A stretch of 64,000 bases of DNA from NCBI GenBank assembly GCA_030538255.1, contig JAUNUI010000005.1, positions 1 to 64,000 on the forward strand, in the 5' to 3' direction. The position numbers were made by a program, and so were the translations under genes. Under the pieces are notes generated by a model that was not told where the DNA came from, did not search any database, and worked only from the letters and a program-made list of their open reading frames with translations. This DNA comes from Pelistega sp. (GTDB lineage: Bacteria > Pseudomonadota > Gammaproteobacteria > Burkholderiales > Burkholderiaceae_B). Shown one piece after another: positions 20,413 to 53,787 of the stretch. The first letter of the stretch is position 1. Each line of letters starts with the position of its first letter.

Positions 20413-20880
20413 TTACTGGTCCAAAAGCATAGGGCGATGAAATTCACGAATATCCTCATCTAAGAAAATAACTCGCGAACTTGGCGGGTAAACTGGTTTT
20501 TTGCGAGTGACCTCGACAAATGCTAGGCGATATTTGTCGATACCACGCTCTACTAATGCTTTCATCAGGGTCAGTGATCGCACCTCATGCAATTCATTAT
20601 TTAAAGCACGCGAGCCGATTTTCTCGTGTTCTACTTCAATTAAGGCAGAGCGCCTAGATTTGGACTTCATTAATTGCGCAATATGATCCAAATACTCCTC
20701 GCCTTGAGCGGTGAAGGCGGAAGAGCCCCTAACGAAGATAGGATCTTGTGTGCTCACAGCAACACCACGTGAACTTGCATCGAAGGAAAGTCCCTTATCT
20801 TTGTAAGAGGCTATTGTGGAGCAAGCGCTTAGAAAGGCTATGAATGTGGTAAGCAGAGCATAGAGAGATATCTTTTTCAT
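20413..20880 (-). CDS. Small lipoprotein with OmpA-like flavour
   Basis: From ATG 20880 the product (155 residues) starts MKKISLYALLTTFIAFLSAC, a lipoprotein signal with an LSAC lipobox. The mature part has a segment (ALIEVEHEKIGSRALNNELHEVRSLTLMKALVERGI) that resembles the alpha-helical part of OmpA-type peptidoglycan-binding domains, where bacterial proteins often have NxxLSxxRAxxVxxxLxxxGI; the key NxxLSxxRA spacing is only loosely kept. Upstream in-frame codons back to 20940 exist, but they would bury the signal peptide, so I start at 20880 despite the lack of a clear ribosome-binding site. Confidence 0.65.
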   Translation of the reverse strand: MKKISLYALLTTFIAFLSACSTIASYKDKGLSFDASSRGVAVSTQDPIFVRGSSAFTAQGEEYLDHIAQLMKSKSRRSALIEVEHEKIGSRALNNELHEVRSLTLMKALVERGIDKYRLAFVEVTRKKPVYPPSSRVIFLDEDIREFHRPMLLDQ

Positions 20881-20940
20881 GAGAGCAGGCACGCTGAGCA
20901 TTGAGAGAATAATTAATTGCTCTCTATTGTAGGGGGTCAC

Positions 20941-21422
20941 TATTATAAAATCCTAATAAATACTTTATATTAATAAAATTTTACGTAAAAACATGCTTTG
21001 GAAACTTTAAATAACAAAGATTACATTTTGTATCTTATTGCTTTTGTGTTTATTGAGAGTCGCTTGTGTATCTTCTAACAGGTCGATGCAGACATATTAA
21101 GCGCTATGTGATGTCCCAAGTAAGCTTGTCGTCGCATGTTTAGTCCGCCGCTTTGACTAAGTAACATTCATTGATTTAAGTCGCATTCATTGACTTAAGT
21201 TTCAAACTTATTAGCAACGGCGGTTGAAAATTGACCACTATACTTAAGCCACAATCTTTAAATCGGCTTAGTGGTATGTGATAAGGTAGCTCTGTTCAGC
21301 TAAATAACCACACCTAGACACTTTTAGTGAGTTTTTATCTTAAAATACCGATAAAATCGTGCCCGCACCCAAGATAAATGCTAAAATAACAGAGTTAATT
21401 TTATTTGAGAGACAGGGAATAT
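20941..21422. other. Long AT-rich leader/intergenic region upstream of thrS
   Basis: About 480 bp without a gene. It holds a three-copy 19-bp direct repeat (21153-21208) and a bulged hairpin using ACCAC / GTGGT and TAAGCC / GGCTTA (about 21231-21275). The thrS promoter must be within it but is not obvious. Confidence 0.45.
21153..21208. repeat. Three-copy 18-19 bp direct repeat upstream of thrS
   Basis: TTGACTAAG, TTGATTTAAG and TTGACTTAAG begin copies at 21153, 21171 and 21190; the first two continue into CATTCA. The spacing is close to two helical turns, so iterated binding sites are possible. Confidence 0.6.
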
Positions 21423-21455
21423 ATGGTTTATTCAATGACACGAACTACGACTTAA
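21423..21455 (+). CDS. Threonine-rich leader peptide of the thrS attenuator
   Basis: Ten-codon frame MVYSMTRTTT with Thr at positions 6, 8, 9 and 10 (ACA, ACT, ACG, ACT) before TAA. AGGGA lies just upstream of the ATG (21414-21418). It ends 58 bp before the attenuator stem and about 110 bp before thrS. Four Thr codons in the last five, in front of threonyl-tRNA synthetase, is hard to explain by chance. Inferred role: a sensor of charged tRNA-Thr by ribosome stalling. Confidence 0.75.
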   Translation: MVYSMTRTTT

Positions 21456-21462
21456 TTATTCT

Positions 21463-21551
21463 AGTCGCGCTCGTGCTTGAAATTTGTGCTCCATAACAGT
21501 CTCTACGTCATGACGCGGCAACCTAGCTTAGGGAGTCGCGTTTTTTATTTT
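21463..21551 (+). promoter_or_regulatory. Transcription attenuator of thrS (antiterminator/terminator)
   Basis: The terminator is ACGCGGC (21513-21519), an inner CCTA / TAGG stem, and GTCGCGT (21535-21541), followed by a T-rich run TTTTTTATTTTT. The 3' arm motif AGTCGCG is duplicated at 21463-21469, only seven bases after the leader stop, and can pair with CGCGGC of the terminator 5' arm (6 bp including one G-U). The two pairings exclude each other. A ribosome at the leader stop would cover 21463-21469 and allow termination; one stalled on the first Thr codons would leave it free. This mirrors pheST and amino-acid operon attenuation. Confidence 0.72.
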
Positions 21552-21563
21552 TAAGGTTTTTCC

Positions 21564-23498
21564 ATGATTCAAATTACTTTACCTGATGGTTCGCAGCGCC
21601 AGTTTGACAATCCGCTTACTGTTGCTGAAGTCGCTACCTCAATTGCTCCAAGCTTGGGCAAGGCGGCTTTGGCAGGTAAGGTAACGACGAGCACGGGTGA
21701 AAGCAAATTAGTCGATACCAGTTATCTCTTGGATAGCGATGCGAACTTAGCCATTGTGACCGCGAAAGATGCGGATGGCTTAGATTTAATTCGTCACTCA
21801 ACCGCGCACTTATTAGCCTATGCAGTGAAATCATTATTCCCTGATGCGCAAGTGACAATTGGCCCAGTGATTGATAATGGCTTTTATTATGACTTTGCTT
21901 ATAAGCGTCCATTCACACCTGAAGACTTAGAGAAAATCGAAAAGAAAATGGCCGAATTGGCTAAGAAAGACGAAGTCGTTGTGCGTGAAGAATGGTTGCG
22001 CGATGATGCGGTTGAGTTCTTTAAATCTCAAGGTGAGATTTATAAAGCAGAAATCATTGCTTCAATCCCAAGTAATGAAACCATTAGTCTATACCGCGAG
22101 GGTGAGTTTATCGACTTATGCCGTGGCCCTCATGTCCCTTCAACAGGCAAGCTGAAAGTCTTTAAACTCATGAAAGTTGCTGGCGCCTACTGGCGCGGTG
22201 ACTCGAATAATGAGATGTTGCAACGTATCTACGGTACGGCTTGGGCGACTAAGGAAGAGCAACAAGCTTACCTAACTATGCTGGAAGAGGCTGAGAAGCG
22301 CGATCACCGTAAACTTGGTAAAGAGCTTAATTTATTCCATTTCCAGGATGAGGCACCAGGCTTGATTTTCTGGCATCCGAAGGGCTGGCAGATTTGGCAG
22401 CAGGTAGAGCAATATATGCGTAAAGTCTACGTTGATAATGGCTACCAAGAAGTCAAGGCACCGCAAATCCTCGACTTGAGCCTGTGGAAGAAGACTGGCC
22501 ACTGGGATAACTATAAAGAAAATATGTTTACCACTGAGTCTGAAAACCGTGCCTACGGTTTGAAGCCGATGAATTGCCCTGGTCATGTGCAAATCTATAA
22601 CGCAGGTCTGCATTCTTATCGTGAACTGCCGATTCGTTATGGTGAGTTCGGTCAATGCCACCGCAATGAACCCTCAGGTTCTTTGCATGGCATGATGCGC
22701 GTACGTGGCTTTACCCAAGATGATGGCCATATTTTCTGTACTGAAGACCAGTTGCAAGAAGAGTGCGCACAGTTTACTGAACTTTTACAAAAAGTTTACC
22801 GTGACTTTGGTTTTACCGAAGTCTTATATAAAGTGGCTACCCGCCCTGAAAAACGTATCGGTGAAGATGCGGTATGGGATAAGGCGGAAGACGCTTTAAT
22901 GGAGAGCTTACGTCGCTCAGCTTGTGAGTTTGAAATCTCACCAGGCGAAGGCGCTTTCTATGGTCCGAAAATTGAATACACCTTGAAAGATGCTATCGGT
23001 CGTCATTGGCAGTGTGGCACGATTCAAGTTGACTTCTCCATGCCAGTGCGCTTAGGTGCTGAGTATGTTGATGCGAATGACCAACGTCGTCCGCCTGTCA
23101 TGCTACACCGTGCAATCTTAGGTTCGCTAGAGCGTTTTATTGGCATGTTGATTGAGAATTATGCCGGTGCTATGCCACCATGGTTGGCCCCTGAGCAAGT
23201 TGTCGTTTGTTCAATTTCAGAACAATTTAACCCTTATGCACAAGCGGTTGTTGATCAGTTAACAGCACTTGGCTTTAGGGCTAGTGCGGATTTACGTAAT
23301 GAAAAAATTACTCGTAAAATCCGTGAAAATAGTATGCAGAAAGTACCTTATATCTTAGTGGTCGGTGAGAAAGAACGTGAAAGCCAGAGCGTGGCTGTAC
23401 GTGGTCGCGGCAATTTAGATTTAGGTGTCTTAACTGTTGATACATTTATTGCGCGCTTAGACAATGACGTTAAACTACGTCAAGATGTACAAGCTTAA
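21564..23498 (+). CDS. thrS: Threonyl-tRNA synthetase
   Basis: Class II synthetase charging tRNA-Thr. Domains: TGS (residues 1-62), second additional domain with the [12 protein letters not shown] editing motif (about 75-90), catalytic core with class II motif 2 [25 protein letters not shown] and the zinc Cys in [10 protein letters not shown], and the C-terminal anticodon-binding domain (about 540-640). Length 644 residues. ATG 21564 follows TTTTTAAGG. infC lies 21 bp downstream in the same direction, the usual thrS-infC order; rpmI and rplT do not follow here. Confidence 0.97.
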
Positions 23499-23519: not shown

Positions 23520-24038
23520 ATCGCAACCGATAAAACCCACCGTATTAATGGTGAAATCCGTACCCCAGAAATTCGTTTAATTGGCCTAGAGGGTGAACAA
23601 CTAGGTGTTGTCGCTATTCAAGACGCTTTGCGTCAAGCAGAAGAAGCGGAAACAGACTTAGTTGAAATTGCACCGAATGCGACACCGCCTGTCTGTCGTT
23701 TGATGGACTACGGTAAGTTTCGTTATCAAGAACAAAAGCGTCAACACGAAGCGAAAGCCAAACAAAAAGTTGTCCAGGTTAAGGAAGTTAAGTTCCGTCC
23801 TGGTACTGACGAGGGTGATTATCAAGTTAAACTACGTAACTTGAAGCGCTTTATTGATGATGGTGATAAAGCCAAGGTTACCTTGCGCTTCCGTGGTCGT
23901 GAGATGGCCCACCAAGAACTTGGTATGAAAGTGCTTGAGCGTATTCGTGATGATTTAGGTGATACCGTTACTGTTGAAGCAATGCCTAAACTCGAAGGCC
24001 GCCAAATGGTTATGGTTGTGTCACCAAAGAAAAAATAA
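23520..24038 (+). CDS. infC: Translation initiation factor IF-3, rare AUC start codon
   Basis: IF-3 discriminates start codons and keeps 30S subunits apart. The family N-terminus begins at ATC 23520 (reading [20 protein letters not shown]), with an AGGAG ribosome-binding site eight bases upstream (23507-23511) and no ATG, GTG or TTG between the thrS stop and this point. Starting at the first common start codon (TTG 23628) would delete 36 conserved residues. Non-canonical AUU/AUC/AUA starts are a known infC feature allowing IF-3 to repress its own synthesis. Product 172 residues with both IF-3 domains, ending VVSPKKK. Confidence 0.93.
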
Positions 24039-24122
24039 TGCGCTAAGCTCAATTGGACTCGCAACTGGGTAAGCATCTTGCCAAGTCTGTTGCTTAAACC
24101 TATTGGGTACTATAATTTGATT

Positions 24123-24244
24123 CGTGCCTTAGCACGGAGTTAAATTGAATCTGTAAGGCATATCCTTTAAGATGCCTTACAGAGAACGCATTCGTTGAAT
24201 TGATGCTAGAGTGGGTAGCAATCTATATTGCGCTGCCTTAGCGC
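24123..24244 (+). terminator. Cluster of three hairpins between infC and gshB
   Basis: CGTGC-CTTA-GCACG (24123-24136), an 11-bp perfect stem CTGTAAGGCAT / ATGCCTTACAG (24151-24182), and GCGCT-GCCTT-AGCGC (24230-24244). None has a strong T tract, so factor-assisted termination or RNA processing is as likely as intrinsic termination. Confidence 0.5.
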
Positions 24245-24331
24245 GCATCTGTATTGGGTCGTCTGAACGAGAATATCTCCTGCTTATTCGAACGGTAGGA
24301 AGTTTCCCTGTTCTAAGTAGGAGTTATTATC

Positions 24332-25291
24332 ATGGAAGTTTTGTTTATCATTGATCCTTTGGTGCAATTGAAAGCCTATAAGGACAGTTCTGTGGCGATA
24401 ATGCGTGCCCTGCAGAAGCGTGGTCACAGCATCTTTGTGGCTTCACAAGGTGATCTCTATATCGAAGGGCAAGTTTATGCGCAGACGCATAAGATTCGTC
24501 TTGACGATGAGGCCGATCTTACGGAACCGAATTGGTGGACTTATGAAGGTGGCGTGCATGAGCGTAAGCTAAGTGAGTTCGCTGCGGTGATTATGCGTAA
24601 AGATCCGCCTTTTGATATGGAATACTACTATAGTTGCCATCTCTTAGCCTATGCCGAGAAGTTTGGGGCTAAGGTTTTCAATAGTGGTGCAGCAATTTAC
24701 TCGCATCCAGAGAAACTCACGATTACCGAGTTCTCTCAATTTACCTCTCCTACCTTGGTCAGCCGTAATATGGCTCGTCTTAAGCAATTCCATCAAGAAC
24801 ATAAAGACATTGTGGTAAAGCCATTGGATGGTATGGGTGGTGCGGGTATTTTTCGTGTTGCGCAGAAAGAGGTGAACTTTAGTTCGATCTTAGAGATGCT
24901 AACGCAAAATGGTCAACAGACAATTATGGCGCAACGCTATATCCCAGAAATTGTGAATGGCGATAAACGTATCTTGATTATTAATGGTCAGGTCGTGCCG
25001 TATTGCTTAGCGCGGATTCCTTTGGCTGGCGAGACACGCGGTAATTTAGCCGCAGGTGGACGTGGCGTGGCTCAGCCTTTGACGGCACGTGATTTGGAAA
25101 TTGCTCAAACTTTGGCGCCGATCCTCAATGAGCGTGGCTTGTTTTTAGTTGGTTTAGACGTGATTGGTGACTACTTAACCGAAGTTAATGTGACCAGTCC
25201 AACATGCTTTGTAGAAATCACAGAGCAGACTGATTTTAATGTTCCTGATTTCTTTGCGCAAGAGCTAGAGAAGCGCCTGAATTTAGTGTAA
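24332..25291 (+). CDS. gshB: Glutathione synthetase
   Basis: ATP-grasp ligase joining gamma-glutamylcysteine and glycine. The N-terminal MEVLFIIDPLVQLKAYKDSS, the middle YYSCHLLAYAEKFGAKVFN and the ATP-grasp segment VVKPLDGMGGAGIFR (about residues 163-177) with NGDKRILIINGQ and LDVIGDYLTEVNVTSPT are typical GshB. Length 319 residues. ATG 24332 has TAGGAG eight bases upstream. It heads the gshB-EIIA-ptsH-ptsI cluster conserved in Burkholderiales. Confidence 0.95.
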   Translation: MEVLFIIDPLVQLKAYKDSSVAIMRALQKRGHSIFVASQGDLYIEGQVYAQTHKIRLDDEADLTEPNWWTYEGGVHERKLSEFAAVIMRKDPPFDMEYYYSCHLLAYAEKFGAKVFNSGAAIYSHPEKLTITEFSQFTSPTLVSRNMARLKQFHQEHKDIVVKPLDGMGGAGIFRVAQKEVNFSSILEMLTQNGQQTIMAQRYIPEIVNGDKRILIINGQVVPYCLARIPLAGETRGNLAAGGRGVAQPLTARDLEIAQTLAPILNERGLFLVGLDVIGDYLTEVNVTSPTCFVEITEQTDFNVPDFFAQELEKRLNLV

Positions 25292-51120: not shown

Positions 51121-53787
51121 ATGACGGTGGTGAGTGATGTGGCGATGGGTCAAGGGAAGACGACGGGTGAGCGTCGCGTAGACGGTGGTGTGGCAGGTGC
51201 CTCCAGAGCCTTATATGTGCGCGTTAAAGCGGTTTGCTTAGGTGTATTTGTGGCACTGGGCATGTTATCCATGATGAGCTTGCCGATTGGTGAGGCACAC
51301 GCGCAAATCCGTGCGGATAAATCCGCCCCTGGTCATCAGCAAGCCACCGTGTTGCAGACGGCCAATGGCTTAGCGCAAGTGAATATTCAGACCCCGACTG
51401 CCGCGGGCGTGTCGGTGAATCAATTCAGTCAGTTTGATGTGCAGCGTCAAGGGGCTATTTTAAACAATAGCCGCCAGCAGACGCGGACCCAACTGGCGGG
51501 TTGGGTGCAAGGTAATCCGCACCTGGCGCGCGGTGAGGCGACTATCATTGTGAACCAAGTTAACAGTCGCCAGCCGAGTCACGTACAGGGATTTGTTGAG
51601 GTGGCGGGGCGGCGCGCTGAGGTGGTGGTGGCCAATCCTGCGGGCATTGCGGTGAATGGTGGGGGCTTTATTAATGCGCAGGGCGTGACCTTGGCAACGG
51701 GTCAGGCGCAGCTCAATGCCCAAGGACAACTGACGGGGATGGCGGTAAACCAAGGGGTCATTCAGATTGGCGCCCAAGGCTTGAACACTAAAGACGCCAA
51801 CTATACGCAACTGATTGCCAAGGCGGCGCAGGTGCAAGGGGGCGTATGGGCCAATGATCTGAGTGTCGCGACAGGGGAGCAACACGTTAAGTTTGACGGT
51901 AAAGACCTCAATCAATCGGCCAAACTAAAACAACAAGCGGCGAAGGACAGCAATACACACACCACACCAGCGCTTGCCATTGATGTGGCGCACTTGGGTG
52001 GCATGTATGCCAATTCCATTGTGCTGGTGAGTAATGATAAGGGCGTGGGGGTGAATAATGCGGGGCAGCTGTATGCGGGCAAGGGGAGTTTACAGCTCAG
52101 TGCCGATGGTAAGCTGAGCAATACGGGCGAGATGATTGCGTCACCTGCCGCTAGTAACACGGCAGCCACCAGCCCGACCGCTCAACGTTCTGGTATTCAG
52201 CTGATTGCCGCGTCCATCGACAACCGGGGCACGGTGGCATCGCAAAACGTGGCCGTAAAAACCGCACAACTGAAAAACCAAGGCGGCTTGATCACGGCCA
52301 GTCATGAGCTTAAGAGTCGCTCAGTGCAGCTTGAGAACACGCATCAAGGTCAGATTGTTGCGGGCCGCGTGGATGTGCAGGCGCAGGCTATCACTAACCG
52401 AGACGCTGCCATTACACAAACAGGCCAACAAGATCTCGTGCTGAAGACGGCGACGTTAACGAATAGCGGCCAAGTGGGTGCGAGCCTCTCCGTCAAGGAA
52501 GACACAGCAGTTCCGCCGCCAACCCAGGGTGGCCCATCCCCTCAAGCGCGTCCTCACACTGGCGTGACACAAACACCAAGTAGCGGCACGGCGGCGGGTA
52601 CCGTTCAGATTCAAGCGACCCCAGCGCCCGTCTTAGCCGATGGACAATTGATTGCCACACAAAGTTTGGTGAATGAGGGCGGGGTCATCACCGCGAATGG
52701 TGAACTGCATGCTCATGTGAGCGAGGACGTGAATAACCGTGGCGCTATCCAGGTCAAGACCTTTACCGCATCCGGCGAGCGCTTGCAGAACGCAGGTCGG
52801 CTAGTGGCGCAGGACTTGCGCCTACAGCATGCGCATATTAACAATACAAAAGGCGCTATTTACTCACCAAATGCGATTACCTTAACGACACAGACCCTCA
52901 CGAACCGTGCGGGTCAGATCGCGACGCAAGGGGCGTTAACCCTCAATAATGTGGGTTTGTTAGACAATACGCAAGGGGAATTAGCGGCTGCGCAAGCGGT
53001 GACGATTGGCACCGATTCACTGCGCAATGATCATGGGCAGGTCAATGCAGGCGGTCAGATGGATGTTCGTGTTAAGACGAGCTTGCAAGATCAGGCAGGG
53101 CAATGGACGACGCCAGGAACACTGCGCCTGACGGCAGGTGGACTCCTGGGTGAAAACACAGAAATACGTACAGGCGGTGCATTGACGGTATCGACCACAG
53201 GACAATTGCAGCTGAATCACGCCAAGGTACAGAGTGCGCAAGCGATTGCATTGACAGGCGCACAGTTGACTCTGCAGGGTGCCGAGGTTGTAGGGCAGGC
53301 ACTTGATCTACACACCGCTGGGGCATTGAACAGTGAAGCGGCGCATGTGCACACCACGAACGTGCGCCTAGAAGCGGGTGATTGGCAAAATGCCCGAGGA
53401 CGTATATTGGCGACCCATACTGCCGCCATTCGTGCGCGTTCTTTGGATAATCATGCGGGACAGGTACAGAGTGGGGGCGATCTCACCGTACAGCTGGATA
53501 AGGCCTTGACGAATCAAGCAGGTACACTACTGGCAGGTAAAGCCTTGCAGTTAGCAGCGCACACCGTCCAGTCAAAGCAAGGCACAATTGCCGCGCAGGG
53601 CCCCGTGCACCTAGCGATAGAGGAATTATTTCATCAAGATGGTGGCGTGATGCGGTCAAATCGTGAATTGACACTCTCGAGTCGCCGTTTTGATAATACG
53701 GGTGGTCGATTAGAAAGCACCAATAATCTTGAGCTGAACGTGCGTGACACCATAAACAATACCCAAGGGCAGATACAGTCTGGGTAA
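51121..53787 (+). CDS. CdiA/FhaB-type exoprotein, N-terminal part (before ochre codon)
   Basis: N-terminal piece of a giant two-partner-secretion exoprotein. An extended signal peptide of about 61 residues (hydrophobic core CLGVFVALGMLSMMSLPIG, cleavage AHA-QI) is followed by the TPS haemagglutination-activity domain (about 65-320), with NPHLARGEA at 132 and NPAGIAVNGGG at 172, the usual NPNL and NPxGI motifs. Then begins the FHA repeat stretch (LTNRAGQIATQG, LDNTQGELAAAQA and so on). The frame ends at TAA 53785-53787; the same frame continues without a gap (SG-stop-DIVLQSQGALNN), so this is one coding region with a premature stop. If real, the product (888 residues) would be a short secreted protein lacking the toxin end. 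Confidence 0.9.
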   Translation: MTVVSDVAMGQGKTTGERRVDGGVAGASRALYVRVKAVCLGVFVALGMLSMMSLPIGEAHAQIRADKSAPGHQQATVLQTANGLAQVNIQTPTAAGVSVNQFSQFDVQRQGAILNNSRQQTRTQLAGWVQGNPHLARGEATIIVNQVNSRQPSHVQGFVEVAGRRAEVVVANPAGIAVNGGGFINAQGVTLATGQAQLNAQGQLTGMAVNQGVIQIGAQGLNTKDANYTQLIAKAAQVQGGVWANDLSVATGEQHVKFDGKDLNQSAKLKQQAAKDSNTHTTPALAIDVAHLGGMYANSIVLVSNDKGVGVNNAGQLYAGKGSLQLSADGKLSNTGEMIASPAASNTAATSPTAQRSGIQLIAASIDNRGTVASQNVAVKTAQLKNQGGLITASHELKSRSVQLENTHQGQIVAGRVDVQAQAITNRDAAITQTGQQDLVLKTATLTNSGQVGASLSVKEDTAVPPPTQGGPSPQARPHTGVTQTPSSGTAAGTVQIQATPAPVLADGQLIATQSLVNEGGVITANGELHAHVSEDVNNRGAIQVKTFTASGERLQNAGRLVAQDLRLQHAHINNTKGAIYSPNAITLTTQTLTNRAGQIATQGALTLNNVGLLDNTQGELAAAQAVTIGTDSLRNDHGQVNAGGQMDVRVKTSLQDQAGQWTTPGTLRLTAGGLLGENTEIRTGGALTVSTTGQLQLNHAKVQSAQAIALTGAQLTLQGAEVVGQALDLHTAGALNSEAAHVHTTNVRLEAGDWQNARGRILATHTAAIRARSLDNHAGQVQSGGDLTVQLDKALTNQAGTLLAGKALQLAAHTVQSKQGTIAAQGPVHLAIEELFHQDGGVMRSNRELTLSSRRFDNTGGRLESTNNLELNVRDTINNTQGQIQSG

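Follow-up and report, generated by a model that had tools for sequence, protein, structure and literature searches.

A putative threonine-codon leader and transcription attenuator upstream of thrS in Pelistega and other Burkholderiales

The thrS locus and its leader region

In the window, the whole 64-kb stretch of Pelistega DNA analysed here, thrS and infC lie one after the other on the plus strand, and thrS is preceded by a short leader region. The features are as follows:

21379–21387, plus strand: extended −10 promoter-like element TGCTAAAAT (motif position; occurrence compared to shuffles in relatives)
21414–21418, plus strand: Shine-Dalgarno-like AGGGA of the leader ORF, with the ATG 4 nt downstream (sequence)
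21423–21455, plus strand: Thr leader ORF MVYSMTRTTT with stop codon TAA (sequence; Thr-rich leaders in relatives)
21438–21452, plus strand: control codons ACA CGA ACT ACG ACT (sequence and fold)
21463–21476, plus strand: region 2, AGTCGCG (putative antiterminator arm) and CTCGTGC (partner of region 1) (sequence and fold; placement in relatives)
21512–21519, plus strand: region 3, 5′ arm of the terminator, GACGCGGC, which can also pair with region 2 (fold, hairpin search)
21535–21552, plus strand: region 4, 3′ arm of the terminator, GTCGCGTT, continuing into the T tract (sequence and fold; terminators in relatives)
21564–23498, plus strand: thrS, threonine-tRNA ligase (TIGR00418, 720 bits)
23628–24038, plus strand: infC, IF-3 (TIGR00168, profile positions 35–170)

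Judged by spacing and strand, infC is probably the second gene of the thrS operon. Since the listed infC ORF is devoid of the N-terminal part, its start is likely located upstream and atypical. A glutathione synthase gene follows infC (23628–24332), and no plus-strand ORF of at least 60 aa is listed between them. Upstream of the leader, the closest long ORF (20413–20940) is on the opposite strand, and ARAGORN identified no tRNA in the window.

The leader frame starts with the ATG at 21423, reads M V Y S M T R T T T and ends with the TAA at 21453–21455. The four Thr codons, pointed out in an earlier sequence-only reading of this DNA, are borne out by the sequence. When ATG ORFs of 6–30 codons with at least four Thr in six codons were searched on both strands, the leader was unique in the 64 kb; it appears twice in the ORF scan because of a nested in-frame ATG. 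With a looser cut of three Thr in six codons, 15 ORFs were found in the 64 kb, and a terminator-like hairpin also stands behind ORFs at two other places, both on the minus strand, near 51647 and 45558. The Arg codon preceding the Thr run is CGA (21441–21443); it is CGA in 91 of 96 leaders, and CGA makes up 6.9% of the Arg codons in the 25 window ORFs of at least 250 aa.

Judged by the extended −10 element, transcription would start near 21394. Our scan for −35/−10 sigma-70 consensus sites did not list this element; it returned two promoter-like sites, compared to 2.7 in shuffles. Among Alcaligenaceae-type leaders, TGNTANNNT was found 15–85 nt before the leader ATG in 53 of 66, compared to a mean of 4.3 and a maximum of 9 in 50 shuffles.

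AGTCGCG is located at 21463–21469, just past the leader stop, as a duplicate of the terminator 3′ arm; it occurs again at 21534–21540, followed by TTTTTT-A-TTTTT (21541–21552) and then thrS. The sequence-only reading had located both copies correctly. The intrinsic terminator spans 21512–21552; GACGCGGC (21512–21519) pairs with GTCGCGTT (21535–21542), and CCTA and TAGG form the inner pairs. In isolation, the terminator hairpin has a folding energy of −16.8 kcal/mol (z −3.1); for the fold of the whole 144-nt leader, z is only −1.6. The generic terminator scan found no terminator at this locus, probably because the hairpin carries an internal loop, and the hairpin was detected by our own zipper search.

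Two further pairings are predicted for region 2. In the antiterminator fold (21459–21528, −16.9 kcal/mol), GTCGCG pairs with CGCGGC, extended by TCGTG with CATGA. Refining the earlier reading, region 2 can also pair with the Thr/Arg codons; CACGA within the control codons forms region 1 and pairs with TCGTG in 21470–21476. When the linker of the window was shuffled, 38% of the shuffles yielded an ungapped complement as good as AGTCGCG (p 0.385); therefore, the argument depends on where the arm lies and on its conservation, and the seven letters by themselves do not suffice.

Recurrence in relatives

We collected 215 sequences upstream of thrS, from 80 named contigs, from the window and 60 relatives, and from 74 of 77 further genomes of the family (G097, G121 and G132 are outside the set). 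Two of them, L158 and L161, were excluded from the counts owing to an offset that missed the start codon, leaving 213 readable starts; L161 was retained in alignment A1 (see below). After near-duplicates and sequences shorter than 260 nt were dropped, 193 remained. The family-type labels given to these sequences are taken from record titles and from general taxonomy.

A Thr-rich leader was defined as an ATG ORF of 6–30 codons with at least three Thr in six codons. Excluding frames that overlap a tRNA or start with MVG, such a leader is present in 107 of the 193 dereplicated sequences, compared to a mean of 4.0 and a maximum of 9 in 20 shuffles. Before this exclusion the count was 108 of 193; 20 shuffles gave 3.6 (maximum 7), and the reverse complements gave 6. 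When the same count was made for each of the other 19 amino acids, two went beyond their shuffle maximum, both slightly: Val, with 12 (4.4 and at most 10 in shuffles), and Glu, with 3 (0.6 and at most 2). The length of the peptide and the spacing differ among relatives, and the Thr-coding frame recurs. A terminator within 150 nt before thrS was found in 160 of the 213 readable sequences; 10 shuffles gave a mean of 27.3 and a maximum of 39, and the reverse strand gave 24.

Within the genus of the window, a leader with at least three Thr is present in four of seven genomes. One same-genus genome, G002, has a seven-codon leader with two Thr; two of the six genomes besides the window, G003 and G005, have no Thr leader. 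The bulk of the relatives do not lack both the frame and the arm, an absence that the earlier reading had named as counting against it; G003 and G005 are among the leaderless ones. Five Alcaligenaceae-type sequences (L011, L112, L107, L179 and L195) carry the promoter-like element and the terminator and no Thr leader; we suggest reading these terminators as constitutive damping or as decayed attenuators.

A covariance model built on A1 was searched against 61 genomes. It gave 38 matches, and all 22 above 35 bits are located directly upstream of thrS. Seven of these 22 are in genomes outside the model: G035 (59.9 bits), G023 (42), G009 (42), G011 (40.8), G025 (37.8), G021 (35.8) and G042 (35.5); the G025 match has the terminator and lacks the Thr leader. 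Among the 16 weaker matches, five are upstream of thrS, two are there on the opposite strand and nine are elsewhere. The pattern GTTATGACACCGCGRAC occurs once in each of 38 of 300 genomes of the order, and the reversed control gave none; among the matches listed, at least 31 of the 38 are upstream of thrS (29, plus two placed later).

The device is not confined to Alcaligenaceae, which extends the earlier reading. In the order outside the family of the window, a leader with at least three Thr together with a terminator was found in 16 of 61 loci, from 11 of 37 families; without L277 and L289, whose frames are read from tRNA, 14 loci and 10 families remain. Three sequences of this order-wide locus set (L273, L295 and L306) do not begin at the start codon. 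Among the 29 other Gammaproteobacteria with loci (of 55 outside the order), no convincing case was found, and three of the 29 have a Thr-rich short ORF. One of these three, L240 from another order, has MSTTTAQR before a terminator; it leaves no room for an antiterminator, was judged spurious and was not counted. L220 and L230 have no Thr leader. These sequence comparisons are best read as a thrS attenuator that is widespread, yet patchy, across the order.

Pairing among the leader regions

Alignment A1 consists of 42 of 44 Alcaligenaceae-type leaders picked by eye (L096 and L146 were left out), cut at CGAA[CT] and at CGCG(T) before the T tract. This procedure fixes CGAA and some of the terminator arm, and it likewise accounts for part of the 3:4 and 1:2 agreement. 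From 5′ to 3′, the A1 consensus reads ACGCGAACTAC (Thr-Arg-Thr-Thr codons, region 1), the stop codon, GCCGCGT (region 2), ACGCGGC (region 3) and GCCGCGTTTTTT (region 4). Regions 1 and 3 resemble each other, as do regions 2 and 4, which is the logic of trp-type attenuators. In Oxalobacteraceae-type leaders (L028, L041 and L051), the stop codon is inside region 2 (GACGCTAGTCG). A second alignment, A2, contains 30 sequences retrieved with the pattern ATGACACCGCG[AG]AC, so its core is invariant by construction and only the flanks are informative; with a looser pattern, the core was kept in 33 of 35. In A2, which is of Oxalobacteraceae-/Comamonadaceae type, GAGCGAGAAAGGCA is strongly conserved before the leader ATG, outside the stretch used for picking the sequences.

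The earlier reading had called for a Thr leader and covarying stems upstream of thrS in relatives. The leader recurs, as described above, and the stems differ from one another. Helix 3:4 is paired in 99.7% of the A1 cells, and its covariation score was reached by 5 of 500 shuffles. Helix 1:2 is paired in 82.8%, weakly above the 79.8% of shuffles, its covariation score was reached by 23 of 500 shuffles, and there were 2 both-side pair changes compared to 2.5. Helix 2:3 is 91.8% paired in the 42 leaders and shows no covariation beyond shuffles (211 of 500 as high). MAFFT places region 2 of the window itself wrongly in A1, and its cells count against 1:2 and 2:3. When the partners were slid, pairing reached at most 57% (3:4), 46% (1:2) and 54% (2:3).

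Complementarity was also analysed without the alignment. Under a looser rule, 117 regions bear a leader, and 99 of them combine a detected terminator with a Thr leader that starts with ATG and lies within 230 nt. In these 99 regions, the stretch most complementary to the terminator 5′ arm scored 17.97, compared to 15.24 in 50 shuffles (sd 0.22, maximum 15.67). In 86 of the 99, this stretch starts between −15 and +10 nt relative to the end of the stop codon, compared to a mean of about 38 and a maximum of 50 in 50 shuffles. These computations support the earlier proposal that the duplicated arm pairs with the terminator 5′ arm as the alternative to the terminator proper. In single sequences, the complement reached p ≤ 0.05 in 28 of 108 (0.385 for the window); because these per-sequence values are weak, the analysis relied on pooled tests of score, position and cognate pairing. 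Cognate arms pair better than re-dealt ones: with segments set by the stop codon alone, 6 of 5000 permutations were as good for the 2:3 duplex and 0 of 5000 as strong for the 1:2 duplex, figures that relatedness can inflate.

We also computed how a ribosome on the leader changes the pairing of region 3. For the stalled state, the ribosome edge was placed 15 nt beyond the first base of the first post-Arg Thr codon, and for the terminating state 13 nt beyond the first base of the stop codon. The mean probability that region 3 pairs upstream is 0.75 with the ribosome stalled and 0.45 with the ribosome at the stop; counting differences larger than 0.1, it is higher in the stalled state in 73 of 97 leaders and lower in 5 of 97. 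For the window, the corresponding probabilities are 0.998 and 0.85, a modest contrast. When the fold of the full sequence in the window is computed at equilibrium, the terminator forms even with the stalled position as the start; therefore, the model needs kinetic folding.

Proposed attenuation of thrS and its possible origin

Trp-type leader-peptide attenuators are known from the E. coli trp, his, leu and thr operons, and from pheST with pheM. Like them, the Pelistega region has a leader ORF with many cognate codons, a terminator before the gene and a stop codon near region 2; helices 2:3 and 3:4 and a candidate helix 1:2 are predicted to exclude one another. The predicted leader, with its Shine-Dalgarno-like site, is a translatable short ORF rich in the amino acid of the downstream gene; an intrinsic terminator is located between leader and gene in the window; and in 86 of 99 regions the stop is placed such that a terminating ribosome would cover region 2. 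Competition of region 2 for the terminator 5′ arm is supported by the pooled tests, without within-family covariation. Different from the trp-type examples, the target here is thrS, no Rfam family matches, a conserved CGA precedes the Thr run and the hosts are Burkholderiales.

We consider it very probable that thrS, and probably infC as well, is controlled by ribosome-mediated, trp-type transcription attenuation in response to a shortage of threonyl-tRNA, so that the leader would sense charged tRNA-Thr. When threonyl-tRNA is plentiful, the ribosome would translate to the stop at 21453 and cover the start of region 2 (21463). After its release at the stop, the 1:2 leader hairpin would form, region 3 (21512–21519) would then join region 4, and transcription would terminate at the T tract. 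When threonyl-tRNA is scarce, the ribosome would stall on ACA/ACT/ACG/ACT and hide region 1; region 2 would thereby be freed and would join region 3 ahead of the synthesis of region 4. With 2:3 paired, the terminator would not form and thrS would be transcribed. Such a device would control an essential aminoacyl-tRNA synthetase, and probably IF-3 also, in a large bacterial group, in a mode unlike that of the textbook E. coli thrS. As a candidate RNA family, it has clear orthologues and cases of loss, and it may have originated from a tRNA terminator.

A different, improbable explanation is that the terminator merely ends an upstream transcript or yields a short RNA, and that the Thr ORF is incidental. 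Terminators at thrS are indeed present in leaderless relatives (L011, L014 and L112), and among 31 regions with a tRNA and a terminator and, by our cut, no Thr leader, tRNA and terminator are at most 40 nt apart in 15. In the window, however, there is no tRNA and the closest long upstream ORF is on the other strand; in addition, Thr leaders are about 27-fold more frequent than in shuffles, and the complementary arm is positioned at the leader stop.

In E. coli, ThrRS binds the thrS operator and acts on translation. Binding of ThrRS to the leader RNA could likewise repress thrS here, with the leader ORF being secondary; we regard this as very improbable. In its favour, autoregulation is the known mode for thrS in E. 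coli, and the nucleotide conservation of the leader exceeds the needs of the peptide (the CGA codon; a 17-nt core in 38 of 300 genomes of the order). Both systems would adjust thrS to the status of ThrRS and tRNA-Thr, but the Pelistega region has a transcription terminator with a T tract ahead of thrS and a Thr-coding leader, whose frame recurs despite varying peptide length and spacing. In Gram-positive bacteria thrS is under the control of a T-box, which also antiterminates upstream of thrS when tRNA-Thr is uncharged but binds the tRNA directly; a T-box, another riboswitch sensing tRNA-Thr directly or a known Rfam leader family can be practically dismissed, since the window has no covariance-model match at the gathering threshold. 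Searching Rfam with 21000–21700 at E ≤ 5 returned one chance match, to a snoRNA model on the other strand, and 11 relatives at E ≤ 1 returned tRNAs and four matches below the family thresholds, and nothing else.

The accessible part of PMC2965389 mentions the autoregulation of E. coli threonyl-tRNA synthetase and, within that part, not a thrS leader; an insertion upstream of E. coli-type thrS is treated in PMC12323667, as far as its accessible text goes. For Streptomyces lividans, the accessible portion of PMC8079986 describes a threonine-dependent leader peptide upstream of thrS (thrL-thrS), with 18 residues, two Thr, a leaderless transcript and termination reported as unclear; therefore, judged by that portion, the finding of a leader peptide before thrS is in itself not new to the literature. 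Compared to that account, the Pelistega leader belongs to another phylum, four of its ten codons are Thr, and it comes with a ribosome-binding site of its own and with an intrinsic terminator. Among open-access titles and abstract beginnings, none announced a betaproteobacterial thrS leader. We do not claim the thrS attenuator of Burkholderiales as unpublished; the screen of attenuation in aminoacyl-tRNA operons by Lopatovskaya et al. (2010), cited in the accessible part of PMC4833913, may already report it.

A same-strand tRNA gene lies within 400 nt upstream of thrS in 70 of 246 regions, and in 68 of them it is tRNA-Val(GAC). Different from the tRNA-bearing regions without a leader by our cut, none of the 15 regions with a tRNA, a terminator and a leader has a tRNA-to-terminator distance of at most 40 nt. 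The arrangement suggests that a tRNA terminator may have been co-opted for the control of thrS. It is possible, though we hold it rather doubtful, that the ancestral order was tRNA-Val(GAC), terminator and thrS; that a Thr leader arose between tRNA and terminator and made it a threonyl-tRNA sensor; that the near-fixed rare CGA serves as a pacing codon and as part of region 1; and that several Burkholderiales lineages went back to the terminator alone. In L290, L294, L136 and others, tRNA-Val(GAC) stands before thrS, and in some of these nothing but a terminator intervenes.
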